Below, piece after piece: positions 3,729 to 25,922 of a stretch of 35,463 nucleotides of DNA (the first letter of the stretch is position 1; every line of letters begins with the position of its first letter). The position numbers and the translations under genes are program-made. This stretch comes from Oscillospiraceae bacterium (GTDB lineage Bacteria > Bacillota > Clostridia > Monoglobales > Monoglobaceae): positions 1 through 35,463 of the forward strand of contig SVKC01000018.1 of the NCBI GenBank assembly GCA_015068655.1. The letters are read 5' to 3'. The notes under the pieces were generated by a model that saw nothing but the letters and a program-made list of their open reading frames with translations, made no database searches and was not told the DNA's origin.

Positions 3729-5504
3729 TCAGTCTCTTACCTTTATATGAACCTCACGGAGCTGCTGTTCCGTAACCTCTCCGGGAGCACCCATCATAAG
3801 GTCCTGAGCATTTCCGTTGAGTGGGAATGCAATAACGTCACGTATAGTTTCTTCGCCGGCAATAAGCATTATCATTCTGTCAACACCGGGAGCCATACCT
3901 GCATGAGGAGGAGCACCGTATGCAAATGCAGTATAAAGAGCACCGAATTTTGCTTTCAGGTCTTCCTCGCCGTAGCCTGCAATCTCAAAGGCTTTTCTCA
4001 TAATTTCAGGGTTGTGGTTTCGAACTGCACCTGAGGACAGCTCAACGCCGTTGCAGACAATATCGTACTGGTATGCAAAAATCTCAAGAGGATCCTTGTT
4101 GAGCAGTGCATCCATACCGCCCTGAGGCATTGAGAACGGGTTGTGCGTAAAGTCAATCTTGTTTGTTTCGGGGTTAAGCTCATACATCGGGAAGTCAACA
4201 ATGAAGCAGAACTCGAAGGAATCGTCCTTGATTAAGCCCAGTTCATTTCCTATCCATGTTCTCATTTCACCAGAGAGACGGTCAATAACAGCTGCACTGT
4301 CGCTGATGAAGAACAAGGATTCACCTTCCTTTATTCCAACAAGCTCTGTGAGCTCTGCCTTCTGTTCTTCCGAAAGGAACTTGGCAATGGGACCTTTGTA
4401 CTCGCCGTCTTCGAGAGTAATATAACCAATACCGAACTTCATACCTATGCTTCTTGAATATGCATCAATAGCCTTTTCAAAAGCCTTCTTGCCGTCACCG
4501 TCGCCGTCCTTCTTCACAAGATAGTTCGCAACAATACCGCGTACCAGCTTGTTCTTGAAGGGAACAGTTCTGCCGTTTATGTTGAGGAATTCGTGCTTTG
4601 CGAAAAATTCGGTCAAGTCCTGAATAATCAGGGGGTTGCGAAGGTCGGGCTTGTCGGAGCCGTATTTCATCATAGCGTCCGCAAAGGTAATGCGGCGGAA
4701 AGGCGGCTTTGAAACCTTCTTGTCCGAGAACTTTGTGAAGGTGTTGTAGATTACTGTTTCAGCAACCTCAAAAACATCTTCCTGAGTTGCAAAGGACATT
4801 TCAAAGTCAAGCTGATAGAATTCACCCGGGGATCTGTCCTGACGTGCATCCTCGTCACGGAAGCAGGGTGCAATCTGGAAATAACGGTCAAAGCCTGAAG
4901 CCATAAGCAGCTGCTTGAACTGCTGAGGAGCCTGGGGAAGAGCATAAAACTTTCCCTTGTGCTTTCGGCTCGGAACAAGATAGTCACGTGCACCTTCGGG
5001 AGATGAAGCTGTCAGAATAGGCGTCTGGATTTCCATAAAGCCCAAATCCTCCATCTGGCTGCGGAGATAGCTGAGTATCTTCGAGCGGAGAACAATGTTA
5101 TCGTGAATTTTTCTGTTTCGAAGGTCAAGGTATCTGTACTTGAGACGCACTTCCTCACGTGTGAGAGTTGATGCATCAATTTCAAAGGGGAGACCCAACT
5201 GACAAGGACCCAGCACCTCAATCTTTTCTGCACGAACCTCAACAAGACCTGTTGCGAGCTTGTGGTTCACGGTTTCTGCATCTCTTTCAGTAACTGTTCC
5301 TTCAACAAGAACAACAGTTTCCTTTGACATTCCTGCAAGAAGGCTGTCGTCGGAAAATACAATCTGTGTCACTCCGTAATGGTCACGAAGGTCAACAAAA
5401 AGTACACCGCCGTGGTCACGGATTGTTTCAATCCAGCCCGTAAGCACTACGTTTTTACCGATATGCTCGGTATTCAGTTCATTACAAGTATGTGTTCTCA
5501 GCAT
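3729..5504 (-). CDS. aspS: Aspartyl-tRNA synthetase, probably non-discriminating
   Basis: A bacterial-type class II AspRS of 591 residues, the normal length with an inserted GAD domain. It has an N-terminal OB-fold anticodon-binding domain (about 1-105), class II motif 2 (FRDEDARQDRSPGEFYQLD), and motif 3 (GVDRMIMLIAGEETIRDVIAFP, split at the second Ile-Ala). The residue after RD in the OB fold is His31 followed by Gly-Gly. In Pseudomonas-type non-discriminating AspRS this position is also His, whereas E. coli has Leu. A non-discriminating enzyme would charge tRNA(Asp) and tRNA(Asn) with Asp, and the downstream gatCAB would convert the second product to Asn-tRNA. Its leader carries a T-box with an Asn codon, which fits that role. 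Dual specificity is inference. Confidence 0.97.
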   Translation of the reverse strand: MLRTHTCNELNTEHIGKNVVLTGWIETIRDHGGVLFVDLRDHYGVTQIVFSDDSLLAGMSKETVVLVEGTVTERDAETVNHKLATGLVEVRAEKIEVLGPCQLGLPFEIDASTLTREEVRLKYRYLDLRNRKIHDNIVLRSKILSYLRSQMEDLGFMEIQTPILTASSPEGARDYLVPSRKHKGKFYALPQAPQQFKQLLMASGFDRYFQIAPCFRDEDARQDRSPGEFYQLDFEMSFATQEDVFEVAETVIYNTFTKFSDKKVSKPPFRRITFADAMMKYGSDKPDLRNPLIIQDLTEFFAKHEFLNINGRTVPFKNKLVRGIVANYLVKKDGDGDGKKAFEKAIDAYSRSIGMKFGIGYITLEDGEYKGPIAKFLSEEQKAELTELVGIKEGESLFFISDSAAVIDRLSGEMRTWIGNELGLIKDDSFEFCFIVDFPMYELNPETNKIDFTHNPFSMPQGGMDALLNKDPLEIFAYQYDIVCNGVELSSGAVRNHNPEIMRKAFEIAGYGEEDLKAKFGALYTAFAYGAPPHAGMAPGVDRMIMLIAGEETIRDVIAFPLNGNAQDLMMGAPGEVTEQQLREVHIKVRD

Positions 5505-5564
5505 AATTCAAACCTCCAAAAAAATTTACTTATTAATATATTATCCTTAAAATGAAAAAATAAA

Positions 5565-5809
5565 AACCTTTCATCCCAAAGTATGGGACGAAAGGTTGTC
5601 TTCCGCGGTACCACCCAAATTGACCGTAAAAACGGTCCCCTTGAACATCTTTTCGCGATGAACGTGCGGTTCTAATCACCCAAAGGGCTTTCTTCCGCAA
5701 GCTCCGAAGTGTTTTTCACACAAAACCCGTTGCCGTGTTTCCAGCATCCACAGCTCTCTCAAAACGAGCCCTTTGTGCTACTCTCTTCATCATAGCCGTC
5801 ATTTATTTT
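5565..5809 (-). promoter_or_regulatory. T-box riboswitch leader, Asn (AAC) specifier
   Basis: The minus-strand leader of aspS has all T-box parts. The conserved antiterminator bulge GGGTGGTACCGCGG is at 5603-5616. A terminator follows, with arms at 5565-5578 and 5584-5597 and a U-rich tail to about 5551. The stem I AGAGAG...GCTGG segment is at about 5741-5760. The specifier loop reads GAAA-AAC-A-CTTCGGAGC, aligning with the Bacillus glyQS pattern GAAA-GGC-A-UUCUUGAGC. The specifier is therefore AAC at 5711-5713, an Asn codon rather than the Asp codon expected for aspS. Uncharged tRNA(Asn) would relieve termination and turn on aspS-gatCAB. Homologous Asn-responsive leaders on transamidation operons are known in Clostridium. 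Confidence 0.93.
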
Positions 5810-5815
5810 CAAGTT

Positions 5816-5844
5816 ATTATACCACAATCGTTTTTTTCTGTCAA
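5816..5844 (-). promoter_or_regulatory. Sigma-A promoter of aspS-gatCAB
   Basis: On the minus strand TTGACA (5839-5844) and TATAAT (5816-5821) are exact consensus boxes with a 17-nt spacer. Transcription would start near 5809, just before the T-box stem I. The perfect promoter fits an operon controlled by premature termination rather than initiation. Confidence 0.9.
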
Positions 5845-5915
5845 GAAAAATTTTTGTCAACAGGCGGTTATACACTCTTTTTGCCAAAATCTTGACGCAA
5901 GGTTTTTTTACACAA

Positions 5916-6149
5916 TCAAAAGTCGTGACAGCTTCCGCAATCTATATTACATCTTCCGAAAAGCGAAACAATTTCGTCAATCATTTCAAAATCTGTGAGT
6001 TCATCCTGACAAAGAATTTCTCTCACAGCATCGAGAATCAAGGTTGCCCTTGAATCTGCAACTGCATTCTCGTCAATTTCAAAATCTGTCAGCTGATTGC
6101 ATATGGCATCAGCAACATAACCTTTGATAAGTTCAGTTTTTATCTTCAT
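5916..6149 (-). CDS. 77-residue conserved protein with C-terminal CX3CX2CH motif (copy 1)
   Basis: I do not recognise a named family. The protein is 77 residues, acidic and mostly helical by composition, with no signal peptide or membrane segment. It ends in GRCNIDCGSCHDF: Cys67, Cys71, Cys74 and His75 form CX3CX2CH, a plausible Fe-S or metal ligand set; Cys17 is also shared with its paralogue. A near-identical paralogue lies at 21365-21601 (66 of 77 residues identical by eye, including all the Cys). Both are transcribed divergently from a small XRE regulator. AGGAGGC (plus-strand gcctcct, 6154-6160) supports the ATG at 6149. A promoter with TTGACT (6235-6240) and TAAAAT (6212-6217) has its -10 overlapping a long palindrome. 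The motif resembles radical-SAM or heme-c patterns, but the protein is far too short for a radical SAM enzyme and is not exported, so neither is claimed. Confidence 0.8.
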   Translation of the reverse strand: MKIKTELIKGYVADAICNQLTDFEIDENAVADSRATLILDAVREILCQDELTDFEMIDEIVSLFGRCNIDCGSCHDF

Positions 6150-6178
6150 TTTTGCCTCCTTTTGTTTCCAAACTATAA

Positions 6179-6216
6179 AAAATATATTTGCACTTATATA
6201 AGTGCAAATATATTTT
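6179..6216. promoter_or_regulatory. 38-bp perfect palindrome, likely XRE operator
   Basis: The sequence is perfectly self-complementary over 38 bp, with the centre between 6197 and 6198 (core ttgcacttatataagtgcaa). It lies between the divergent Cys-motif gene and the XRE gene. It overlaps the -10 box of the former (6212-6217) and lies upstream of a TATAAT (6227-6232) for the latter. This is the arrangement expected of an autoregulated repressor site controlling both genes. Confidence 0.75.
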
Positions 6217-6240
6217 AAATTAAATTTATAATAAAGTCAA
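6212..6240 (-). promoter_or_regulatory. Promoter of Cys-motif gene copy 1
   Basis: Minus-strand TTGACT at 6235-6240 and TAAAAT at 6212-6217 are separated by 17 nt. The -10 box overlaps the right arm of the 38-bp palindrome, so a bound regulator would block it. Confidence 0.65.
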
Positions 6241-6277
6241 TAGGTTTGTTCTAATTTGAGTGCAAAGGATTGATTGT

Positions 6278-6511
6278 ATGAATAAGATAATAGAGAAAGA
6301 AATAGGTAATAATATCAGAAAAATCAGAGAATCTGCAGGAATGACACAAGAGGCTCTTTCGGCAAAGTTGCAGCTAAATGGCTGCGACATAACAAGAAGT
6401 GCTCTTGCAAAGATAGAAGTCGGACAAAGACATTTATATCCTGATGAAATTGTTTTGATAAAAGAAATCTTGTGTACGGATTTTGATTCAATTTTTTATG
6501 GAGTAAAATAA
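6278..6511 (+). CDS. Small XRE-family HTH regulator
   Basis: A 77-residue DNA-binding protein consisting of one lambda-repressor-like helix-turn-helix: IGNNIRKIRESAGMTQEALS is helices 1-2, and CDITRSALAKIEVGQRHLY is the recognition-helix region with the typical AKIEVG turn. I chose the ATG at 6278 (AAAGGA 8 nt upstream) over an in-frame TTG at 6260. It is divergent from the Cys-motif gene and presumably binds the palindrome between them. The stop codon is 1 nt before the ATG of a broken transposase gene, so that remnant is on its transcript. The HTH call is firm; the target assignment is inference. Confidence 0.88.
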   Translation: MNKIIEKEIGNNIRKIRESAGMTQEALSAKLQLNGCDITRSALAKIEVGQRHLYPDEIVLIKEILCTDFDSIFYGVK

Positions 6512-6512
6512 T

Positions 6513-6680
6513 ATGGCTTTACCAAAACGAAAACCAACGAGGTTACAGGGGTATGATTACAGCACACCAGGGGCATATTTTATTACGATATGTACACACA
6601 ACAGAAAATGTGTATTGTCAAGCATTGTAGGGGAGGGTTTCCACACCCTCCCGCAAAACATATTGACAGAAATATGTAGG
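6513..6680 (+). pseudogene. RAYT (REP-associated Y1 transposase) remnant
   Basis: The first 50 or so codons match the N-terminus of REP-associated tyrosine transposases: RKPTRLQGYDYSTPGAYFIT followed by ICTHNRKCVLSSIVG. The homology stops near 6680, where the frame runs into the antisense of ylbJ and ends at 6758. The HUH motif (usually PNHxH) and the catalytic Tyr are missing, so it cannot be active. The segment encoding IVGEGFHTLP is a REP-like hairpin (6626-6653). It starts 1 nt after the XRE stop codon. Confidence 0.8.
6626..6653 (+). repeat. REP-like hairpin inside the RAYT remnant
   Basis: Head TGTAGG, then the stem GGGAGGGT (6631-6638), loop TTCCAC (6639-6644) and stem ACCCTCCC (6645-6652). 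The same head and the same TTCCAC loop occur in the second hairpin of the 135-bp repeat copies (for example 22707-22733). This links the repeat family to this transposase type. Confidence 0.7.
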
Positions 6681-7751
6681 TTAAAGACGGGGCTTTCTGC
6701 GCAGAAAAGACACCATAACCGAAAGAAACAGCAAAACCGCAACGGCAAGAATTATTGATACAAGGGATGACAAGGCTGCTCCAAAGGGTGATGTGAAAAT
6801 TTCTGTTACAAAGGTGTCTGTGTGGAAGGTTTCGGTTGTGACGGGAAAGGCTTTCAACAAGAGATATGTCAACCCGGAGGAAATCAATCCCTGACAAAGC
6901 TTTCCGAGAATGTAGGGCTTCAAAGACAGTCCGTGGGGGGCTGTTATTGCAGATACCTGAAACATAACAGATACGCCTGAAAGAGCAAGAAAAAAGGAAA
7001 TCAAGGGCAGTGTCAGCCTTGATTCAAGCTCCGCAAGAACCTTCAGACCGCCCACAATTTCCACCAGAGGATAAAGAAACGGGTTTCGGGGAAGGGTGCT
7101 TGTGAAAACGGCAAAGAAAATTACAAAACCGCATACCTTCAAAATTGAAAAAACAGAGCTGTCTATTATGCTGCCCAGAGAAAACAGGGCGGCTTTTTTG
7201 TTTGTATCGGCAGAGGGAGGAAGGGTACGGTTGTTTTCGGAAGTACCCTTATAAAATCTGAAAAGAATCCCCGTAAGCACTGCGGCGATTATGTGGGATA
7301 TGTAGAGGTATCTGCCGAGAAGGGGACTTTCGAGATAACTGCAGCCCACAACCCCGATTACAAAAAGAGAGCCTGAATTGTTGCAGAAGGCAAGCATTCT
7401 TTCGGCTTCGGTTTTTGTGCAATGTCCTGACGAATAAAGACTTGCGGCAGTTGCTGCACCTACGGGGTAGCCGCTGAGAATTCCCATAAAAAAGGTTATG
7501 GCACCTGAACCCGGAAGGTTGAAGAGAGGACGCATAATCGGCGACAAAAAGTGACTGCAAAGAGATGAAAAGCCCAGAGCAGACAAAAGCCCGCTGCACA
7601 CAAAAAAGGGGAAAAGAACGGGTATAACTGTCTGTGCGCAGAGAGAAAGAGACTCTCTTGCGGCGGCAAGACAGGGTTCGGGGGAAACAACAAGAAAGGA
7701 TACGAGATAGAGGACAAATCCCGAAAAGAGTATTTTTAAAAATCTTTGCAT
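6681..7751 (-). CDS. ylbJ: Sporulation integral membrane protein YlbJ
   Basis: A polytopic membrane protein of about 356 residues with two nucleoside-recognition (Gate) type repeats. In Bacillus, YlbJ is made in the mother cell and is needed for a proper spore cortex. Family-typical stretches are CAQTVIPVLFPFFVCSGLLS, MRPLFNLPGSGAI, FMGILSGYPVGAATAASLY, and EAERMLAFCNNSGSLFVIG. The start is uncertain: the frame is open to an ATG at 7787, but AAAAGGA lies just before a TTG at 7757 and the ATG at 7751, so I use 7751. The 3' end meets the RAYT remnant. It is divergent from yqfC, another mother-cell sporulation gene. Confidence 0.88.
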   Translation of the reverse strand: MQRFLKILFSGFVLYLVSFLVVSPEPCLAAARESLSLCAQTVIPVLFPFFVCSGLLSALGFSSLCSHFLSPIMRPLFNLPGSGAITFFMGILSGYPVGAATAASLYSSGHCTKTEAERMLAFCNNSGSLFVIGVVGCSYLESPLLGRYLYISHIIAAVLTGILFRFYKGTSENNRTLPPSADTNKKAALFSLGSIIDSSVFSILKVCGFVIFFAVFTSTLPRNPFLYPLVEIVGGLKVLAELESRLTLPLISFFLALSGVSVMFQVSAITAPHGLSLKPYILGKLCQGLISSGLTYLLLKAFPVTTETFHTDTFVTEIFTSPFGAALSSLVSIILAVAVLLFLSVMVSFLRRKPRL

Positions 7752-7833
7752 AATCAAAAAAATCCTTTTTGTTTTATATCTATTCATTAAAAATGGCTTT
7801 TAGGCATAAAATTGAAGAGGCAGGTGATTTTGA

Positions 7834-8133
7834 TTGAGGAAAAAAGAAAAAACGGAAAAAGTAACCCTGCGTGAAAAGGCTGCAGACAAATTCGGTGCAT
7901 CAAAGGAAATTCTTCTGGATATACCGAAGCTTGTGTTTATCGGAAGCCGTGAGGTTACGGTAGAAAACTACAAGAGCATTTCGGAGTATACACCAACACA
8001 CATTGTTCTTGAAGCAAAGCCCGGACAGCTGCGGTTTTCAGGCACTGACCTTGAAATAAGGAGTATAAGCCGTGATATGCTTTTTATTACGGGAAAAATC
8101 GAAAAGACGGAATTTGGAAATGAGGTGCAATAA
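7834..8133 (+). CDS. yqfC: Sporulation protein YqfC
   Basis: A 99-residue protein of the YqfC/YabP-like family that in Bacillus is sigma-E dependent and acts with YqfD in the mother cell. The segment LDIPKLVFIGSREVTVENYK, followed by SISEYTPTHIVLEAKPGQLRF (split at EY), is the family core. The start is a TTG, supported by AGGTGA (7822-7827) 6 nt upstream. The stop overlaps the yqfD start by one base (TAATG), indicating coupling. CATAAAAT at 7805-7812 resembles a sigma-E -10 element, but I see no convincing -35. Confidence 0.88.
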   Translation: MRKKEKTEKVTLREKAADKFGASKEILLDIPKLVFIGSREVTVENYKSISEYTPTHIVLEAKPGQLRFSGTDLEIRSISRDMLFITGKIEKTEFGNEVQ

Positions 8134-9350
8134 TGTCTCCTGAACGCTTGGCAGGAAGTGTACGAGGTTATGTGGAAATCTGTGCGGACGGGTATTTTTG
8201 TGAGAGATTTCTGAACATCTGTATACATCGGGAGATTTTTCTCTGGGATGTCCGCAGACTTGGAGAAAACCGCATTTGTGCTTGTATCGGTATAGAAGAT
8301 TTCAAGCGGTTGCGCAGTGTAGCTACGAAAACAAAAACAAGGGTGAGAATAACAAAACGTGTTGGATTGCCTTTTTTTCTGCACCGTTACCGAAAACGCA
8401 AGGCGTTGATTGCCGGTTGTGCGTTGTTTTTTTTGATATTGTGGTATCTTTCCACCCATATTGTGGGGATTGATATTACGGGCAATGAGCGCATAACTCC
8501 GGCGAAAATCCTTCGGGAGCTGAAAGGTGCGGGCTTGTCCTATGGTGTATCGGTGAAAAAGGTTGACAGAAGCCATGTGCGAAACCGTCTTATGACAGAA
8601 CTGGATGACCTTGCATGGGTGGGAATAAACATAAAGGGTTCCCGTGCTTATATTGAGGTGAAGGAACGTCTTGATACCTTCATTGAGCCTGACAGAACTG
8701 TACCTTGTGATATTGTGGCGGAGAGGAGCGGAACGGTGAAGCTTCTTGAAGTGAAAAACGGACAGACTATGGTGAAGACGGGACAGTATGTTGAGGAAGG
8801 CGACCTTCTGGTGAGTGGTGTTGTTGACAGCGACAAAGTGGGCATAAGGTATGTTCATTCTTACGGCGAAATCTATGCAGAAACAATTTTTGAAAAATCA
8901 GGGGAATATACTCTTGAATATATTGAAAAAATATATACGGGAAAGGAAAAAAATCGGTACAAAGCTTCGGTTATGGGGAAAAGCTTCAACTTATTCCTGA
9001 GAGACAATCAGCCCTTTGAGTATTCGGATTGCAAGGAGACCCAAAGGGAATACAGACTTCCTTTTGATGCAATTCCGTCTCTTTTTGTGGAGGAGCGAAA
9101 ATTTTTGGAATATGTTCCCCAAAAAAAGAAAAGAAGTCTTGAAGAAACAGTAAAGCTTGGGGAGAAGGAGCTTATGGCAGAGCTTGACAAGGAAGTCCCT
9201 GACGATGCAGAGATAACAGATAAAAAAACCTTGTTTTCACAAAAGGGAAAAAACAAGGTGGAGATTACGGTGAAATATGTATGCAATCAAGATATTGCAG
9301 GACAAAGAACAATTGACAAAACCGAGAATTTGGAGTATGATGTAGAGTAG
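8133..9350 (+). CDS. yqfD: Sporulation protein YqfD
   Basis: YqfD is a mother-cell membrane protein needed for efficient sporulation (also known as SpoIV-type YqfD). The 405 residues contain one clear membrane helix at about 90-107 (ALIAGCALFFLILWYLSTHI), followed by the extracytoplasmic IVGIDITGNERITPAKILRE domain, resembling the small POTRA-like fold seen in FtsQ-type proteins. Family-typical DLAWVGINIKGSRAYIEVKE follows. Adjacent to yqfC and upstream of phoH, as in most Firmicutes. The ATG overlaps the yqfC stop. Confidence 0.92.
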   Translation: MSPERLAGSVRGYVEICADGYFCERFLNICIHREIFLWDVRRLGENRICACIGIEDFKRLRSVATKTKTRVRITKRVGLPFFLHRYRKRKALIAGCALFFLILWYLSTHIVGIDITGNERITPAKILRELKGAGLSYGVSVKKVDRSHVRNRLMTELDDLAWVGINIKGSRAYIEVKERLDTFIEPDRTVPCDIVAERSGTVKLLEVKNGQTMVKTGQYVEEGDLLVSGVVDSDKVGIRYVHSYGEIYAETIFEKSGEYTLEYIEKIYTGKEKNRYKASVMGKSFNLFLRDNQPFEYSDCKETQREYRLPFDAIPSLFVEERKFLEYVPQKKKRSLEETVKLGEKELMAELDKEVPDDAEITDKKTLFSQKGKNKVEITVKYVCNQDIAGQRTIDKTENLEYDVE

Positions 9351-9397
9351 AGAAATAATATTGAAAAAACGAAAGAAACCAAGGAAGGACACCTTTT

Positions 9398-10414
9398 ATG
9401 GAACGGCATATTGAAGTTGAAAGAATGGAAATCCTGATAAACCTTTTCGGGAATTTTGATGAAAATATAAGGCTTATTGAAAAGACCTATGACGTTGCGG
9501 TAATCAACCGCGGCTCAGAGATTAAGGTCGGCGGTGAGCCTGACAATGTGGACAAGGCCACAAGAGTTATCAACAACCTTCTTGCTATGGCACACAGCGG
9601 TACTGCTATTGGCGAACAGGAGGTTCGTTATGTTATGTCCCAGATTGACGAAGGAAACGAGGAGGAGCTTGGCACTTTGGGTCAGGACTGTGTTTGTATT
9701 ACCTCAAGAGGAACACCAATACGTGCAAAAACTCTCGGTCAGAAGAAATACATCTCTGCTATTGAGAAGAATCCTATTGTTTTCGGAATCGGTCCTGCGG
9801 GTACGGGAAAGACTTATCTTGCTGTGGCAATGGCGGTGAAGGCTTTCAAGAGCAAGGAGGTCAACAAGATTATTCTGACACGTCCCGCTGTTGAAGCAGG
9901 GGAGTCTCTGGGCTTTCTTCCCGGAGATATGCAGGACAAGGTTGACCCTTATTTGCGACCGCTTTATGACGCCCTTGGGGATATGCTGGGCGGCGAGGCT
10001 TTCCACAAGAATATTGAGCGTGGACTTATTGAGGTTGCACCTCTTGCTTATATGAGAGGAAGAACCCTTGATGATGCGTTCATTATCCTTGACGAAGCCC
10101 AGAACACCACTCCCGAACAGATGAAAATGTTCCTTACAAGAATGGGTTTCTCGTCAAAAATTGTTGTTACCGGTGATGTGACCCAGATTGACCTTCCCAG
10201 AGACAAAAAATCAGGGCTTCGGGATGCGGAGATTGTTCTCAAAAATGTTGAGGGCATTGAGTTTATGTATCTCAGCGAGGCGGATGTTGTGAGACATCCT
10301 CTTGTACAGAAGATTGTCAAGGCTTATGAACGGAAAACCATTGAACGTGAGCGGATTCAAAAAAATAATATGAGTAAAGCGAGACACGGAAATGAAGGTA
10401 GCTATCAGAAATAA
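9398..10414 (+). CDS. phoH: PhoH-family ATPase
   Basis: A cytoplasmic P-loop ATPase of the PhoH/YbeZ family, linked to RNA metabolism and commonly encoded beside YbeY. An N-terminal KH-like segment (about 1-65) precedes the ATPase domain. Walker A is GPAGTGKT (residues 132-139), Walker B is FIILDEAQN, and the family motif ARPAVEAGESLGFLPGDM appears as TRPAVEAGESLGFLPGDM. GDVTQIDLPR is the sensor-like segment. AAGGAAGGA lies upstream of the ATG. Its last 23 nt overlap ybeY. The physiological substrate is not established for this family. Confidence 0.95.
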   Translation: MERHIEVERMEILINLFGNFDENIRLIEKTYDVAVINRGSEIKVGGEPDNVDKATRVINNLLAMAHSGTAIGEQEVRYVMSQIDEGNEEELGTLGQDCVCITSRGTPIRAKTLGQKKYISAIEKNPIVFGIGPAGTGKTYLAVAMAVKAFKSKEVNKIILTRPAVEAGESLGFLPGDMQDKVDPYLRPLYDALGDMLGGEAFHKNIERGLIEVAPLAYMRGRTLDDAFIILDEAQNTTPEQMKMFLTRMGFSSKIVVTGDVTQIDLPRDKKSGLRDAEIVLKNVEGIEFMYLSEADVVRHPLVQKIVKAYERKTIERERIQKNNMSKARHGNEGSYQK

Positions 10415-18419: not shown

Positions 18420-18537
18420 ATGTAGTAAAAAATTTTTTCGGGACGGGATGGAACCCGTCCCCTACATATATTGTGCAATCGTTTTTGTGATTCAATTTGT
18501 AGGGTTCGGTTTCCACGCCGAACCGCTTTTTTTGTAT
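18420..18537 (+). repeat. BIME/MITE-like repeat, copy B
   Basis: Same two-hairpin core as copy A (GGGACGGG stem at 18440-18447, second hairpin at about 18500-18524 followed by seven T). The terminal repeats are eroded: the left end reads tgtagtaaaa and the right end is cut at the stop codon of the minus-strand GHL10 gene (18541-18539). It lies between convergent gltA and GHL10 genes and should work as the gltA terminator. Confidence 0.82.
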
Positions 18538-18538
18538 G

Positions 18539-20314
18539 TTATTTGATTATTTCCCTGACCTTGTTCAAAAAGACTGCCGTTTCTGCACGGGTCGCAAAGC
18601 CTTGGGGACGAAGCTCACCGGTTTCGTAGCCCGAGAGAAGTCCTGTGCTGACAATTGCTTTTACGGCAGTTTCTGCATATTCGGAAACTTCGTTTCCGTC
18701 GGTGAATTTTGCTGTCAAACTCATATTTTCATTGTCTGTTATGAAACCTTCCTTTTTCAAAACTCTGTATACCAGTGTTGCCATTTCTTCACGTGTAACC
18801 TTTCCTTCCGGGTCAAAGTAAATGCCGTCACGACCGTTTGTTATTCCCAAAGCCTTTGCAATACCTATTTCGTCGTAGTAGTATTTGTCGGGCGAAACAT
18901 CCGAAAAATTGTCGGTGACAACAGCCTTTCCGTTCAGGAGCCGAACCAGCATAAGAGTGAAGTCTGCACGGCTTACGGGAGCAGAGCCGCCGAAGGTGCC
19001 GTTTCCCATACCCTTGATTATACCCTTTTCGGTAAGGGCGAGAATTGCGTCCTTTGCCCAGAGAAAGTCCTTGAGGTCGGTGAATTGTGGTGCTTTTCCT
19101 GAATTTGCTGTCAGTACAAAGTCTTCTGTGGCAGAGCCTTCGGGAACACAGCCCAGACGATAATGGGCATAACCGATGCACCCATTCAGGTTTCGGAGAT
19201 AAGCGGTCTGGTTGGTGAGCTCGTCAATACCCTTTTGACCATACCAGGCGGAATCGGGGTTTGTTTCTTCTGCGGACTTGTATACAGCCTGACCAATGCA
19301 AAGGCGGACATTTGTGTCCTTCACAGTATTCGACCACCAATCCGAAACAATCCTGAAATCTGCGGCATCAAAGCCGTTGTACCAATATATCTGGGGAATA
19401 ATCCAATCCATAAGATTTTCTTTCACCCAAAGCCTTGTGTCGGCAAAGTATTCATAATATGCTTCTGCACCTGATGTGTCGCTGCCGTCGGGATGAGAGC
19501 TTTTGTTTGCCCAGATTCCGCAGGGACTTACGGAGAAAATGAGGTTTTCGTCTTCTGCTTTTATTGCATTATGAAGCTCACGTACAAGAGATGTGGTGTT
19601 GTGACGGCGCCAGTCGCCTATGTCGGAAAATTGGGTACCATATTTTGCAAAGGTATCAGCATCAGGAAAATTTGTGTCAGGATAAAAGTAGTCGTCAATA
19701 TGTATGCCGTCAATGTCGTAATTTTGAATAATTTCCTGAACACCCCTTACGGTCAGCTCAATGGATTCAGGCTCTCCGGGGTTGAGATAAAGCCTTCCGT
19801 CCGTGTGTTTCACTGTCAGGTGGGCATATTTTTTTGCAATGGAATTTTCGGAAAGCCCGGTTTCGTCTGCGGCGGAAAGGGTAAGGCGATATGGGTTAAG
19901 CCATGCGTGAACGGAAATACCCCTTTTGTGAGCTTCCTCTGTGAAATATTCAAGAGGGTCAAAGTTATCCGCGGGGGCTGTGCCTTGAACTCCTGTCAAA
20001 TATTTCGACCAAGGGAAAATATCGGATTTGTAGAAGGCATCTCCTGAGGGTCTGACCTGAAGGAAGACAGTATTGTAGTCCAGTTCTTCAATGCGGTCAA
20101 GAAGCTTGTCTGCATTACGGCGCAGTAGTCCTGCAGAGGTTGTGGGCTTTTGAGGATAGTCCAGCCCGAAAACCGTTGCCGCCCATACAGCACGAAGCTC
20201 TTCGGGGTGCTCTGCAAGAGCCGGCACCGCCTTTGGAGGCGTAAGGATGTTCATTGATGCGAAAAGTCCCACAAGAAGAAGGATTGCATAAAGGGTTTTT
20301 GATATGTATTTCAT
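18539..20314 (-). CDS. Secreted GHL10-family glycoside hydrolase with three SLH domains
   Basis: A 591-residue surface protein. A signal peptide (KTLYAILLLVGLFASMNIL) is followed by a GHL10/DUF187 TIM-barrel domain at about 38-370: ELRAVWAATVFGLDYPQKP, VFLQVRPSGDAFYKSDIFPW, SVHAWLNPYRLT and DGIHIDDYFYPD are family signatures. From about 411 to the end are three S-layer homology modules (each with FTD..., then a Rad-type segment such as VSRADFTLML, VTREEMATLV, ATRAETAVFL) that bind pyruvylated wall polymers. Related enzymes are thought to act on cell-wall or host glycans; the substrate is unknown. AAAGGCGGG lies upstream of the ATG. Confidence 0.92.
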   Translation of the reverse strand: MKYISKTLYAILLLVGLFASMNILTPPKAVPALAEHPEELRAVWAATVFGLDYPQKPTTSAGLLRRNADKLLDRIEELDYNTVFLQVRPSGDAFYKSDIFPWSKYLTGVQGTAPADNFDPLEYFTEEAHKRGISVHAWLNPYRLTLSAADETGLSENSIAKKYAHLTVKHTDGRLYLNPGEPESIELTVRGVQEIIQNYDIDGIHIDDYFYPDTNFPDADTFAKYGTQFSDIGDWRRHNTTSLVRELHNAIKAEDENLIFSVSPCGIWANKSSHPDGSDTSGAEAYYEYFADTRLWVKENLMDWIIPQIYWYNGFDAADFRIVSDWWSNTVKDTNVRLCIGQAVYKSAEETNPDSAWYGQKGIDELTNQTAYLRNLNGCIGYAHYRLGCVPEGSATEDFVLTANSGKAPQFTDLKDFLWAKDAILALTEKGIIKGMGNGTFGGSAPVSRADFTLMLVRLLNGKAVVTDNFSDVSPDKYYYDEIGIAKALGITNGRDGIYFDPEGKVTREEMATLVYRVLKKEGFITDNENMSLTAKFTDGNEVSEYAETAVKAIVSTGLLSGYETGELRPQGFATRAETAVFLNKVREIIK

Positions 20315-21305: not shown

Positions 21306-21334
21306 TTGACTTTACACTACAAGTAGTGTATAAT
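21306..21334 (+). promoter_or_regulatory. Promoter of Cys-motif gene copy 2 with nested operator
   Basis: TTGACT (21306-21311) and TATAAT (21329-21334) are 17 nt apart. Between them, an inverted repeat tacactac/gtagtgta (21313-21320 and 21323-21330, 2-nt centre) fills the spacer and touches the -10 box. This is a classic repressor site layout. Confidence 0.82.
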
Positions 21335-21364
21335 AAAATTAAGATTTTTATACGGAGGAATAAG

Positions 21365-21601
21365 ATGAACATAAAAACTGAATTAATAAAGAGTTATATT
21401 GCGGAAGTAATATGCAGTCAGCTGACGGACTTTGAGATTGATGAAAACAAGGTTGCGGATTCAAAGGCGACATTAATTCTTGATGCTGTGAGAGAAATTC
21501 TTCGTCAGGATGAGCTGACGGATTTTGAAATGATTGAAGAAATTGTTTCGCTTTTCGGAAGATGCAACATAGATTGCGGAGCTTGTCACGATTTTGGATA
21601 A
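21365..21601 (+). CDS. 78-residue conserved protein with C-terminal CX3CX2CH motif (copy 2)
   Basis: Paralogue of the protein at 5916-6149, differing at about 11 of 77 positions by my count and one residue longer. It ends GRCNIDCGACHDFG, so Cys67, Cys71, Cys74 and His75 are kept, as is Cys17. No signal peptide or membrane helix is visible; the body is rich in Asp, Glu, Ile and Leu and should be helical (LTDFEIDENKVADSKATLIL). CGGAGGA is about 6 nt before the ATG at 21365. No family name comes to mind. Conservation of the tail and repeated pairing with XRE genes suggest a metal- or redox-responsive small protein or a regulator partner; this is inference. Confidence 0.8.
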   Translation: MNIKTELIKSYIAEVICSQLTDFEIDENKVADSKATLILDAVREILRQDELTDFEMIEEIVSLFGRCNIDCGACHDFG

Positions 21602-22625: not shown

Positions 22626-22759
22626 GGGATGTTGCAAAATGAAATTTTCGGGACGGGATGGAACCCGTCCCCTACGTATATTGTGCATTTTTTTTGTGAC
22701 ACAACTTGTAGGGTTCGGTTTCCACACCGAACCTCTTTTTTTCATTTTGCTACATCCCC
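22625..22759 (+). repeat. BIME/MITE-like repeat, copy C
   Basis: Terminal repeats ggggatgttgcaaaatgaa (22625-22643) and ttcattttgctacatcccc (22741-22759) pair at 18 of 19 positions. The core has the GACGGG hairpin and the GGTTCGGT-TTCCAC-ACCGAACC hairpin, followed by a T-run. It lies between convergent dehydrogenase and S26-like peptidase genes and starts at the last base of the former's stop codon. Confidence 0.87.
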
Positions 22760-22771
22760 GTTGGGTTTCTG

Positions 22772-23206
22772 CTATTTTATTTTCAGTAGTCTTTTGATTT
22801 TTCCTTTTACCCTGAAAAGGAAAAATTTAAACGCTCTTATGGGATATGTGCGTCTTGCCCGTTTGGCAAAGGCAATATCCTCGGCACTTCCGCACTCCAT
22901 ATACTCGCCGTTGCGGTATGCCGCTGCCATAACTCCAACAATATCCTTGTCGGTTATGTCCTTTTCAAGGTCGGGACGGTTGTCGCCGTTGATAATGTAA
23001 CCGTTCTTTGTTACCTTGACAATTCTGTGCATTGTATAGTGATTTTTCCGTTTGTAAACGGGAATATCATATTTCTTCAATGGAAATTCAGCTTTCTTCA
23101 CAATAACAGTATCTCTGCCCTGAACAAGCATTGGCTCCATACTGTTTCCTATGGTCTTGGCTGTATAAATTCCCTTTTCGTCAAGAATTTTTTCTATATC
23201 GACCAC
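22772..23206 (-). CDS. S24/S26-like peptidase with Ser-His dyad
   Basis: A 144-residue protein resembling signal peptidase I or LexA-type peptidases. The nucleophile motif is GNSMEPMLVQGRDTVIVKK (Ser22). HYTMHRIVKV follows with His60 where the archaeal/SipW-type enzymes have the general base. Then comes INGDNRPDLEKDITDKDIVG, equivalent to box E. There is no N-terminal membrane anchor; the C-terminus is very basic (FFLFRVKGKIKRLLKIK) and could bind the membrane. It is the last gene of the SLH/kinase/PqqD operon, 29 nt after the PqqD gene. It may process a peptide or surface substrate of that operon; this is inference. The start is a GTG with GGTGA upstream. Confidence 0.85.
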   Translation of the reverse strand: MVDIEKILDEKGIYTAKTIGNSMEPMLVQGRDTVIVKKAEFPLKKYDIPVYKRKNHYTMHRIVKVTKNGYIINGDNRPDLEKDITDKDIVGVMAAAYRNGEYMECGSAEDIAFAKRARRTYPIRAFKFFLFRVKGKIKRLLKIK

Positions 23207-23235
23207 AAAATCACCGTCCTTTGGGGGATACTTTC

Positions 23236-23502
23236 TTATTCTTCAACAAGGTTGGCTTCACTGACCTTTTTCACAAAAGCCGCAACATCAGCCTTTGCAC
23301 GGTCTTCATCCACATCGTATTCGCCCAGAAGTGCCGCAACCATATCTGCCTCGGTTACGTCATTTTCCATTGTCTTCCACAAAAATGCTCCGCTTTCGTT
23401 CAAATTTATAACACCGTTGAAGTTGAGAGCTCCGTCTCCTACCGGAACCACCACATAATATCCTGCTACGTTTCTCAGCATAAAATCTTTTTTTATTTTC
23501 AT
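23236..23502 (-). CDS. PqqD-like (RRE fold) protein
   Basis: An 88-residue PqqD-family protein; these proteins form the winged-helix RiPP recognition element that binds leader peptides and presents them to modifying enzymes. Typical features are VAGYYVVVPVGDGALNFNGV, the NLNESGAFLWKTME segment (usual LN.tga.iW...dG), and the helical C-terminus DRAKADVAAFVKKVSEANLV. GGAGG lies 9 nt before the ATG. It lies between an HprK-like kinase gene and an S26-like peptidase gene, with a palindromic repeat between it and the kinase. No radical SAM, B2 or cyclase partner is in the window. Whether it still binds a peptide is unknown. Confidence 0.9.
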   Translation of the reverse strand: MKIKKDFMLRNVAGYYVVVPVGDGALNFNGVINLNESGAFLWKTMENDVTEADMVAALLGEYDVDEDRAKADVAAFVKKVSEANLVEE

Positions 23503-23537
23503 TCCGATTTCCTCCGTTTTTTTTCTAAATACACTTT

Positions 23538-23630
23538 GGGGGCTGTTGCGTTGAGCATTTTAAATGAATAAATATTCAAAATTATAGGGGCGATTGACGA
23601 ATCGCCCCCGGGTCATTCTTGAATGCCCCC
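23538..23630. repeat. Composite REP-like repeat inside the operon
   Basis: The left part, gggctgttgcgttgagcat (23540-23558) and on to about 23577, matches the minus-strand reading of the palindrome at 20968-21033. The right part has a perfect 9-bp hairpin ggggcgatt/aatcgcccc (23587-23595 and 23600-23608) and a second imperfect one, gggtcattc/gaatgcccc (23610-23618 and 23621-23629). It separates the kinase and PqqD genes and reaches the kinase stop codon (23630-23632). Confidence 0.7.
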
Positions 23631-24373
23631 TACTTATTCATCCCGTTGTATGCAACTATTGCGGCTTCGTTCTCCATATTGCAATGAAGGGTATGTACCT
23701 TCACCTTTGTAAGAACGTTTTCCAAAAGCTCAAGAAGCTTTGTCATATTCTGTACGTCCTTGGGACGTATAGTCTGGTCCAGAATTCTTTGTATTGCATC
23801 CTTTGGAGACATAGGCTCAATCCAATTTGTCTCACAACGCTCCACAAAGCAGATACCTTGAAGGGGAACACCCACATTTTCGTTTCTGTCGGTTTTTCCG
23901 CTCCAGGGAGTTCCAAAAGCAAAAATCTCACCGTCAATCACACGGATGACGGGCTTGTCATCGTTGAGAATAAAGGTTTTGTCCTCCCCAAAGGTTTTTT
24001 GCCATACAGAGGTATGTGTGGACTTTCCTGTTCCGCTGGGTGCTGAAAAAAGGTAAGCCTTGTTTTCGTAAACTACTGCCGATGCATGAAGCATAAATCC
24101 GTCAAAATTCAGAAGTTGTTCGCTGAATTCTGCTCCTGTCCACATATATTCGTGTTCCAGAAGCGAAAGCTGAGGAATTGTTGCTCCGTGTCTTGTCAAG
24201 GTTTCGTCATCAATGCCAAGTACGATTTGAGGATAACCTTCAAAATCCGCACGGTATTTTTGTGCCTGAGTTTCAATAACTCCACCTTTTCGGAGAATCA
24301 TTCCCACATTTACGCCTGCAATAATGTATTTTTCTTTGGATATTTCATAGAAAGTCTTGTTTTCCTGATTCAT
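23630..24373 (-). CDS. HprK-like kinase (PEPCK fold)
   Basis: A 247-residue P-loop protein of the HPr kinase/phosphorylase superfamily. LHASAVVYENKAYLFSAPSG followed by TGKSTHTSVW gives the HprK-like His (96) and Walker A (SAPSGTGKST, residues 110-119). FILNDDKPVI matches the downstream Asp-Asp motif, and GTPWSGKTDRN follows. True HprK has an extra N-terminal domain and works on HPr Ser46; this one has a different, shorter N-terminus. Relatives next to lasso-peptide genes (PadeK type) phosphorylate precursor peptides. The ATG at 24373 comes 1 nt after the SLH gene's stop, so translation is coupled; an upstream frame to 24487 overlaps that gene and is not needed. The substrate is unknown. Confidence 0.85.
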   Translation of the reverse strand: MNQENKTFYEISKEKYIIAGVNVGMILRKGGVIETQAQKYRADFEGYPQIVLGIDDETLTRHGATIPQLSLLEHEYMWTGAEFSEQLLNFDGFMLHASAVVYENKAYLFSAPSGTGKSTHTSVWQKTFGEDKTFILNDDKPVIRVIDGEIFAFGTPWSGKTDRNENVGVPLQGICFVERCETNWIEPMSPKDAIQRILDQTIRPKDVQNMTKLLELLENVLTKVKVHTLHCNMENEAAIVAYNGMNK

Positions 24374-24374
24374 A

Positions 24375-25355
24375 TTACTGTTCCGCTTCAACCTTTTCTG
24401 TTGACTGGTCGGGAGTTCCCAAATTTGCCATTGTTGAGAAGGTACTGTTCTTGCAGATATAAACCTTGTGAACTTTTTCAGCCTCATAAGAATCTTCTTT
24501 TCTTCTTATATCGCCTTCAACTCTCACGTTGGGTCTGATAATCTTTACGTGCTGATAACGTCCGTCAAGGGCAATACGTTTTCCTGCACGAACAACAAGC
24601 TCAGAATCAATTTTGCTGTTTGCAAAGCTCAGCTCTGTGTCGCCAACACCGTCACCGATAACAACCATTTTTTCGGTTTCAACGCCGTCAAGCTTCAGGT
24701 TTCCTACTCTTATCATAACATTTCCGTCAGTGGGAATTGTTGTTGCATTTTCATCGTCGATATAATACTTTATCAATCTGTCCATAACAACTGCGAATTC
24801 AGCTCTGGTAATATTTGCATTGGGGTTGAGCATACCGCCGTTTCCGCCTACATAACCAAGAGAAACAATTGCTGCAACATCATTTGCCGCCCACTGGGCA
24901 ATGTCAGCAACATCTGTGAACTGATTGAGGATTGATGTATCAACCTTTGTGTTTATTGCAAGACCGAATACTCTCGAAAGAACAACAAAAGCTTCCTGTC
25001 TTGAAATAGGACTTTCGGGGTTGAGCATTCCGCCGCTGCCGTTGAAAGCTCCCATAGCCACAGCCTTTGACATTGAGCCGTAGAACCAGTCGTTTGGAGT
25101 AACATCCGTGAATTCAGAAATGTCTGCATCTCCTGTTGCACCGCAGGCACGAACCATTATTGTTGCCATCTGGGCTCTTGTGAGGTTGTCGGATGGGAGA
25201 ATTTTTCCGCCGCTGCCGCTGAGAAGACCGTTTTCAACTGCGTTGAGAAGGGCAGTTGTTGACCAGTCATCGGGCATATCCGAGAAATCTGCTGCAAAAG
25301 CAGATATGGACATTGACATAATACATACCAAAAGTAAAGCAATAATTTTTTTCAT
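24375..25355 (-). CDS. Secreted SLH-domain surface protein
   Basis: A 326-residue exported protein. The signal peptide is MKKIIALLLVCIMSMSISAF followed by A-A-DFS. Three SLH modules follow over about 25-210: FSDMPDDWSTTALLNAVENG / LTRAQMATIMVRA; FTDVTPNDWFYGSMSKAVAM / ISRQEAFVVLSRVFG; FTDVADIAQWAANDVAAIVS / ITRAEFAVVMDRLIK. The last third (about 225-326) is a beta-rich region with VGDTELSFANSKIDSELVVR that I do not recognise. I use the ATG at 25355 with AAAGGAA upstream; the in-frame extension to 25406 would block the signal peptide. It heads the operon with the kinase, PqqD-like and peptidase genes, and may be its substrate or an anchor; this is inference. Confidence 0.88.
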   Translation of the reverse strand: MKKIIALLLVCIMSMSISAFAADFSDMPDDWSTTALLNAVENGLLSGSGGKILPSDNLTRAQMATIMVRACGATGDADISEFTDVTPNDWFYGSMSKAVAMGAFNGSGGMLNPESPISRQEAFVVLSRVFGLAINTKVDTSILNQFTDVADIAQWAANDVAAIVSLGYVGGNGGMLNPNANITRAEFAVVMDRLIKYYIDDENATTIPTDGNVMIRVGNLKLDGVETEKMVVIGDGVGDTELSFANSKIDSELVVRAGKRIALDGRYQHVKIIRPNVRVEGDIRRKEDSYEAEKVHKVYICKNSTFSTMANLGTPDQSTEKVEAEQ

Positions 25356-25423: not shown

Positions 25424-25452
25424 ATTATACAATAAACTAAAACTATTTTCAA
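25424..25452 (-). promoter_or_regulatory. Promoter of the SLH-kinase-PqqD-peptidase operon
   Basis: Minus-strand TTGAAA (25447-25452) and TATAAT (25424-25429) with a 17-nt spacer. The leader holds a small hairpin (GGCAG AAAA CCTGCC, about 25391-25404) between promoter and ribosome site. Confidence 0.8.
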
Positions 25453-25596: not shown

Positions 25597-25752
25597 ATGA
25601 CAAACAACGGTGTAAGCTGCAATGTATGCGAATGTATGTATCACAAAGAGGAAAACAAGTGCAGTCTTGACAAAATTCAGGTAAGCCACGAAAAAACAAG
25701 TGCAGATGCAATTGCAATTCCCCACTTCTGCAAGAGCTACGAAAAGAAATAA
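25597..25752 (+). CDS. DUF1540-type Cys-rich small protein
   Basis: A 51-residue protein with GGAGGTG 7 nt before its ATG. The pattern CNVCECMYHKEENKCSLDKI, then VSH and a later HFC, matches the DUF1540 module (C..C.Y....C.a..I.v), thought to bind metal and common in Clostridia and Bacilli, often in spore-formers. A short inverted repeat tttgata-gtg-tatcaaa lies upstream at 25527-25543. No membrane or export signal is seen. It converges on rseP with repeat copy D between. Function unknown. Confidence 0.8.
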   Translation: MTNNGVSCNVCECMYHKEENKCSLDKIQVSHEKTSADAIAIPHFCKSYEKK

Positions 25753-25770
25753 CTTTTGATAAATTATTTT

Positions 25771-25908
25771 GCGGGCTGTAGTAAAATGAAAAAAGCGGTT
25801 CGGCATGGAAACCGAACCTTACAAATTGTATCACAAAAAACGAGTGTACAATATATGTAGGGGACGGGTTCCATCCCGTCCCGAAAATTTCATTTTGCTG
25901 CAGCCCGC
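25771..25908 (-). repeat. BIME/MITE-like repeat, copy D (inverted orientation)
   Basis: Terminal repeats gcgggctgtagtaaaatgaa (25771-25790) and ttcattttgctgcagcccgc (25889-25908) pair at 18 of 20 positions. The two hairpins are present in the order opposite to copies A-C: GGTTCGG at 25797-25818, GACGGG at 25862-25881. It fills the space between the convergent DUF1540 gene and rseP. Confidence 0.87.
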
Positions 25909-25922
25909 AATTTCTGTAAATT

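Follow-up and report, generated by a model that had tools for sequence, protein, structure and literature searches.

The 35,463-nucleotide stretch of DNA analyzed here (the window) is contig C32 of genome G000, an Oscillospiraceae bacterium whose assembly of 1.78 Mb is 82% complete, and it contains an operon of four minus-strand genes encoding, in this order, an SLH protein, an HprK-like kinase, a PqqD-family protein and an S26-like peptidase. This operon very probably represents the kinase, RRE and leader peptidase (K-B-S) core of a Linear Polyphosphorylated Peptide (LPP)-type system that works in trans, where RRE denotes the recognition element of pathways for ribosomally synthesized and post-translationally modified peptides (RiPPs). 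While the LPP kind of system has been known since 2026, its dispersed, multi-precursor form paired with secreted proteins appears to be new. Since the LPP core genes are scattered in the genome of the window, the assignment is limited to an LPP-type, trans-acting variant.

Probable assignment of the operon to the LPP family

The LPP family was described in Bacilli (Nat Commun, 20 May 2026; PMC13381572), with core genes lppA-K-B-S-D-N in Paenibacillus alginolyticus that encode, besides the precursor (A), a kinase, a discrete RRE, an archaeal-type signal peptidase, an MsbA-like ABC transporter and an NTP transferase (NTase). LppK phosphorylates Ser3 of the core with one to several phosphates and uses Ser but not Thr, LppB binds the YxxP leader aided by N33 and D70, and LppS (S29, H68, D93) cleaves after T-1 once LppB presents the leader; the paper gives the biological role of LPPs as unknown and the final product as not identified (PMC13381572). 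The window contains the kinase, the discrete RRE and the archaeal-type signal peptidase in the same K-B-S order, here in a clostridial host and with an added SLH protein.

The kinase had no match in a Pfam scan and only weak ScmC and HprK-related matches in NCBIfam, while its AlphaFold2 model (predicted local distance difference test, pLDDT, 89.9) matched PEP carboxykinases as well as HprK/P and thus exhibits the HprK/PEP-carboxykinase fold. H96, K117, D138 and D139 were invariant among 11 aligned sequences and fit the His-Lys-Asp-Asp set, which is present in LPP kinases and essential in lasso-tailoring kinases (PMC9266682). The nearest public records by kinase came from Ruminiclostridium, Ruminococcus and metagenome-assembled genomes (MAGs) of Clostridia. 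Upon alignment of the PqqD-family protein to LppB (PDB 9x8z_B), N35 and D72 occupied the positions of N33 and D70, respectively, with Asn at the former in 46/46 relatives and Asp at the latter in 30/46; the Asn/Asp recognition pair of LPP RREs is therefore kept, whereas the paeninodin RRE carries Gly and Gln there. The genome encodes a second PqqD-family protein (G000:C22:2231-2401, locus L002), the gene of which has a transporter and a cysteine-synthase-like gene as neighbours but neither a kinase nor a peptidase; it appears to be a different use of the fold. The top family of the peptidase was sigpep_I_arch (archaeal-type signal peptidase I), at 7e-8 and under the NCBIfam cut-off, and comparison of its structure model placed its fold nearest to signal peptidases and LexA-like peptidases. 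Residues S22, H60, D75 and E81 were invariant in 25 sequences of relatives and provide the Ser-His-Asp set of the LPP enzyme, with either D75 or E81 as the catalytic acid. No transmembrane helix was seen on reading the sequence of the peptidase, the C-terminal helix of which is basic. Export signals were absent from kinase, PqqD-family protein and peptidase but present in the SLH protein (326 aa), which consists of a signal peptide, three SLH repeats and a C-terminal region of about 110 aa.

The words Clostridia, SLH, surface and orphan are all absent from the main text of the LPP paper, although its supplement may list some members from Clostridia (PMC13381572). A literature search, with thin coverage of subscription papers and preprints, found no clostridial, multi-precursor or secreted-protein-paired version.

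Candidate precursor peptides encoded apart from the operon

A peptide profile search of the window detected no precursor-like open reading frame (ORF), in agreement with the earlier note on this DNA, which had seen no obvious precursor. A 91-aa ORF at 21326-21601 was ruled out as a precursor by eye, as it has no YxxP leader. Candidate precursors were found through loci L003, L004 and L007, which belong to other families and had been retrieved by the kinase only; they contain ORFs of 31-57 aa with the common start MKxYxxPEIEIxxFxxEDVIT just 5' of the kinase gene or of a gene next to it. Profile A4, built from four peptides of these three loci and none from the genome of the window, nevertheless matched a peptide in this genome (MKKFYETPAVEFTGFNAEDVITTSDINTYSMTTEKEAEFNQRVADGDFAGVNASVSYGSYTW, starting with MKKFYETPAVEFTGFNAEDVITTSD; G000:C7:8588-8776, E=3.4e-4) that is unlinked to the operon.

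The peptides form a family with a conserved leader (YxxP...DVITxS, in full YxxPxxEIxxFxxEDVITxS) and a variable core and are encoded at dispersed loci, as many as 20 in a single genome. As in LPP precursors, an N-terminal YxxP leader is combined with a variable C-terminus, and a Ser close to the cleavage site is conserved. Residue 19 after the leader Tyr was Ser in 106/117 peptides and Thr in 2/117, which agrees with the Ser specificity of LppK. Neither Pfam nor NCBIfam contained a family matching the peptides, and a PDB search with the peptide profile gave no matches, so that the LppA leader itself was not recovered by sequence. Loci L090, L091, L092 and L099 of genus g1 exhibit a recurrent unit of three to four genes in which the peptide gene is followed by one for a membrane protein of about 145 aa and in some cases by one for a stalk-like protein of about 147 aa.

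Co-occurrence of peptides and kinase across the class

To place these peptides in a wider context, we surveyed 292 genomes sampled evenly across the class, all at least 85% complete except the window's own. Peptides were detected in 38 and the kinase in 81 of them, with both present in 37 (Fisher p=4.5e-23; this and the following Fisher values ignore phylogeny and so overstate independence). The sole peptide genome without kinase was G275, the peptide match of which carries two stop codons. The full-length kinase type was found in 35/38 peptide genomes compared to 44/292 overall (p=2e-33), and the type of about 300 aa in 2/38. NTase family PF14907 was present in 34/38 (p=1e-13), while the lasso protease B2 (PF13471) was found in 0/38 peptide genomes and not in G000. 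Over a dozen families are represented among the peptide-bearing genomes, and the contrast within genus g4 had the same direction, with peptides in 5/5 kinase-positive and 0/7 kinase-negative species. In the latter seven, profile A4 gave only chance-level matches inside long ORFs and a broader peptide profile gave none; the broader profile detected 15 peptides in G007, 11 in G013 and 7 in G010.

Pairing of peptides with secreted proteins

The majority of the distinct peptides (107/117) were preceded by a same-strand gene ending no more than 150 nt upstream, with a median gap of 18 nt and a median length of 551 aa. Among the complete genes directly 5' of peptides, 80/95 encode a signal peptide compared to 112/365 other genes of the same stretches (p=1.5e-21), as scored by a crude rule outside of which several of the 15 negatives nevertheless appear exported. 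Pfam scans of ten of these secreted proteins mostly gave no match and otherwise Big_2 and Flg_new-type repeats.

The last ~95 residues of the upstream proteins form a recurrent C-terminal domain with the pattern YGFYF...GFYADL..I....YYAxPYVxxxG, which was found in 46/110 proteins upstream of peptides and in 0/546 neighbours. When searched over the 292 genomes, the domain occurred in 79 copies in 18 genomes, all of which were kinase-positive (18/18, p=2e-11), and 49/79 copies directly preceded a detected peptide; as the domain seeds came from peptide-linked proteins, their own pairing was built in, whereas the restriction to kinase genomes was not. In an out-of-sample check, three kinase-positive genomes scored as peptide-negative (G220, G238 and G182) proved to contain divergent DDITxS peptides 15-22 nt after the stop codon of a domain gene, including MKKFIDPEIDIRDLSPVKSVMDDITFSGDFTGTDNEQTVTDPAANDEATW downstream of an unpaired domain in G182, to which the peptides of G220 and G238 are related. 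Additional typical peptides were found downstream of unpaired domains in G064 and G239, and the stretches downstream of the remaining unpaired domains contained no peptide.

Conservation of the gene cassette

The order SLH-kinase-PqqD-S26 was kept in 5/8 other genomes of the genus (G023, G024, G025, G028 and G029) as well as in G031 (where an ABC transporter is next) and G035, which represent two further genera of the family, and in G290 from another family it lies inside a longer cluster, peptide-SLH-K-B-S-ABC-NTase. The co-occurrence survey proposed in the earlier note thus recovered the arrangement repeatedly, and this recurrence in relatives makes it more than chance. G244 and G124 exhibit the complete A-K-B-S-D-N order of the Bacilli, with a secreted protein, short peptide, kinase, PqqD, S26, ABC transporter and NTase but no SLH gene, while G290 differs by the SLH gene after the peptide. 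Other species of the family combine kinase, PqqD, S26, NTase and ABC transporter, with a Cu_amine_oxidN1 stalk protein adjoining the kinase, and in some loci such a stalk protein or an unassigned small protein takes the place of the SLH gene. A precursor with YxxP leader and core Ser is linked to the cassette in L003, L004, L007, G244, G290, G124 and others, and MsbA-like ABC transporter and NTase genes are present in the clusters of relatives. The earlier note had named a linked precursor and maturase of a known RiPP class as what would speak against its reading; such linked genes in G290, G244 and G124 do place the system in a known class, albeit a very recent one.

Several loci deviate from this arrangement. 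In L232:1143-2690 (G141), a 515-aa ORF directly 3' of kinase and PqqD is an apparent fusion of S26-like leader peptidase and NTase that ties both functions together, and a 412-aa ORF at L015:5233-6471 matches PqqD as well as the HprK-like kinase (apparent RRE-kinase fusion), with an ABC transporter and an S26-like gene as neighbours. Loci L005-L014 from Oscillospirales (~4200-10300 each) encode a membrane-type protein of about 570 aa, an HprK-like kinase, PqqD, an ABC transporter (not in L006) and a Wzz-like protein, with no S26 peptidase in these sets and no DVITxS peptide nearby.

Alternative explanations

The earlier note had named the SLH protein as one possible substrate. According to this explanation, which we regard as very unlikely, the SLH protein would itself be the target of the operon, phosphorylated by the kinase and, after export, processed by the S26-like enzyme. 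The translational coupling of the SLH and kinase genes and their adjacency in the genus, G031, G035 and G290 would fit, but the SLH protein has no YxxP leader and no residue tied to the kinase, its gene is exchanged for that of a stalk or small protein beside the kinase elsewhere and is absent in G244 and G124, and the three enzymes show no export signal while the SLH protein does. In addition, the peptides account for the PqqD-family protein and co-occur with the kinase genome-wide. Cutting of exported proteins, the role previously suggested for the S26-like enzyme, gives way to that of a leader peptidase, the function of its LPP counterpart. A kinase-PqqD pair serving exopolysaccharide export control, with the peptides merely correlated, is likewise improbable, if slightly less so. 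Related kinase-PqqD pairs adjoin ABC transporter and Wzz-like genes in L005-L014, Wzz-like genes lie upstream in L046, and the NTase gene of G000 is located among glycosyltransferase-like genes. On the other hand, the absence of the S26 peptidase from L005-L014, the fact that peptides track the full-length kinase rather than the type of about 300 aa (2/37, p=0.19) and the direct adjacency of peptides and kinases in many genomes argue against it, and a polysaccharide link would also fit the LPP-type system as a downstream role.

Membership in the paeninodin-like lasso peptides, with the genes for cyclase and B2 protease at other loci, was rejected and is extremely unlikely. These systems (PadeK/ThcoK kinase, PsmN NTase) resemble the one described here in the HprK-like kinase acting on a precursor, the discrete PqqD/RRE, the [Y/W]xxP leader and the NTase and ABC partners, found here in relatives of the cassette, and the top NCBIfam matches of the window's PqqD were lasso PqqD families, with scores under the cut-off. 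However, the protease position is occupied by the signal-peptidase-like enzyme and B2 is absent from the G000 assembly and every peptide-bearing genome, the leader residue is predominantly Tyr instead of Trp, the RRE carries Asn/Asp instead of Gly/Gln, and the clostridial peptides have no conserved C-terminal Ser. No Asn-synthetase-like macrolactam cyclase was noticed in the operon or beside the cassettes of relatives, although a genome-wide search was not made. The SynChlorMet cassette (ScmC/ScmD, TIGR04249/TIGR04248) and HprK-related kinase A systems (TIGR04352) share weak kinase and PqqD profile matches with the operon, but these are far under the curated cut-offs and the operon contains no radical SAM gene. 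Thus, the absence of radical SAM and B2 genes recorded in the earlier note held, the latter for the whole assembly, while the lasso family that it had taken as reference is replaced by LPP.

Several observations weigh against the assignment to an LPP-type system in trans, besides the overstated independence of the Fisher values. The cassette of the window has no precursor (A), ABC (D) or NTase (N) gene, and a single precursor located near a contig end was detected in an incomplete MAG. The published leader reads YxxPxVLxHQxIxFETxxS with 18 residues from Tyr to Ser compared to 19 in the clostridial one, and the counterpart of LppS D93 is uncertain between the two acidic residues of the peptidase. 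Furthermore, 9/44 genomes with full-length kinase had no detected peptide (divergent peptides account for some of these), none was found in G025 and G035 despite their conserved cassettes, and G027, G033 and G036, all incomplete MAGs, carry peptides with no kinase detected. Overall, the interpretation of the earlier note is partly supported and was largely right in its phosphopeptide half: a minimal phosphopeptide system with an unlinked peptide as possible substrate is well supported by the candidate on C7 and by the peptides tracking the kinase across the class.

Features of the operon and its surroundings

The four genes were confirmed in position and strand (Table 1), as was the start codon of the kinase 1 nt downstream of the SLH stop codon. 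The single promoter previously proposed for all four was also found, as a strong, near-consensus sequence (11/12 bases) 5' of the SLH gene, with one reservation: kinase and PqqD are separated by 127 nt, a gap that is short or absent in congeners and here contains a terminator-like hairpin. Because of this hairpin, expression of PqqD and peptidase may be lower than that of SLH protein and kinase.

Table 1. Features of the operon and its flanking repeats (positions within the window)
Feature	Position	Strand	Evidence
SLH-domain exported protein, 326 aa	24375-25355	-	Pfam SLH 4.2e-33; same position in 5 congeners and G031, G035, G290
HprK-like peptide kinase (LppK-type), 247 aa	23630-24373	-	HprK/PEPCK fold; invariant H96, K117, N137-D138-D139; weak ScmC and HprK_rel_A matches
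PqqD-family discrete RRE (LppB-type), 88 aa	23236-23502	-	Pfam PqqD 8e-18; profile matches LppB chain 9x8z_B
Archaeal-type signal-peptidase-like leader peptidase (LppS-type), 144 aa, GTG start	22772-23206	-	NCBIfam sigpep_I_arch 7e-8; signal peptidase/LexA folds
Sigma-70-type promoter, TTGAAA-17-TATAAT	25424-25452	-	~70 nt 5' of SLH start codon
Terminator-like hairpin, possible attenuator	23586-23609	-	10 pairs, 6 G-C; between kinase and PqqD
Dispersed palindromic intergenic repeat, left copy	22626-22759		Inverted repeats I1/I2, 88% complementary
Same dispersed intergenic repeat, right copy (inverted)	25773-25910		I1/I2 pairing; operon lies between both copies

The intergenic repeat contains a 22-nt palindromic core (GGGACGGGATGGAACCCGTCCC) with exact copies at 613-634, 18440-18461, 22650-22671 and 25861-25882, that is, four occurrences in the window compared to zero expected. 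A small Cys-rich ORF (MTNNGVSCNVCECMYHKEENKCSLDKIQ...) on the plus strand at 25616-25770 resembles a DUF1540-type protein by eye. A further exported protein of 591 aa, encoded outside the operon on the minus strand at 18539-20314, has SLH-like similarity and, by eye, a glycoside-hydrolase-like N-terminal part.

Proposed mechanism and biological role

By homology to the enzymes of the LPP paper (PMC13381572), the PqqD-family RRE would bind the YxxP leader and thereby capture a short peptide encoded at another locus, here the candidate at G000:C7:8588-8776, the kinase would phosphorylate the conserved core Ser of DVIT-x-S, and the signal-peptidase-like enzyme would cut while the leader is presented by the RRE. 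As to the exact cleavage site, the partners in the genome of the window and the surface role, we infer that the cut would fall after the Thr of DVIT, that an NTase may decorate the phosphate, with the unlinked gene at G000:C1:31505-32236 in the glycosyltransferase locus as candidate, and that an ABC exporter encoded outside the operon would export the product. Outside the cell, the peptide would meet the Sec-secreted product of the gene immediately 5' of its own as well as the SLH protein, the presumed surface partner of the system, within the surface layer. The system may plausibly be linked to surface polysaccharide, given that the LPP clusters of Bacilli are often located in capsule loci (PMC13381572) and that a related kinase-PqqD pair in Oscillospirales occurs with Wzz-like genes.

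In the published family, the precursor belongs to the enzyme cluster, whereas the clostridial precursors are unlinked, number up to 20 per genome and each lie 3' of a secreted-protein gene, many of which share the C-terminal domain. Mining for RiPPs by cluster, where precursors are sought beside the enzymes, therefore misses most precursors of the clostridial system. The clostridial arrangement adds what the clusters of Bacilli lack, namely a protein partner for each peptide that is recognizable by sequence and up to 20 peptides per cassette, and the pairing with secreted proteins provides a first testable clue to the function of phosphorylated linear RiPPs. We tentatively suggest, as a possibility that may well prove wrong, that clostridial LPP peptides are dedicated partners of secreted surface proteins rather than natural products in their own right, with each phosphorylated peptide, matured by a single central cassette that serves many dispersed precursors, joining the C-terminal domain of the protein encoded upstream and perhaps bridging it via phosphate and sugar to polysaccharide or to the SLH protein. 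If true, the system would represent a cell-surface assembly system derived from a RiPP pathway.

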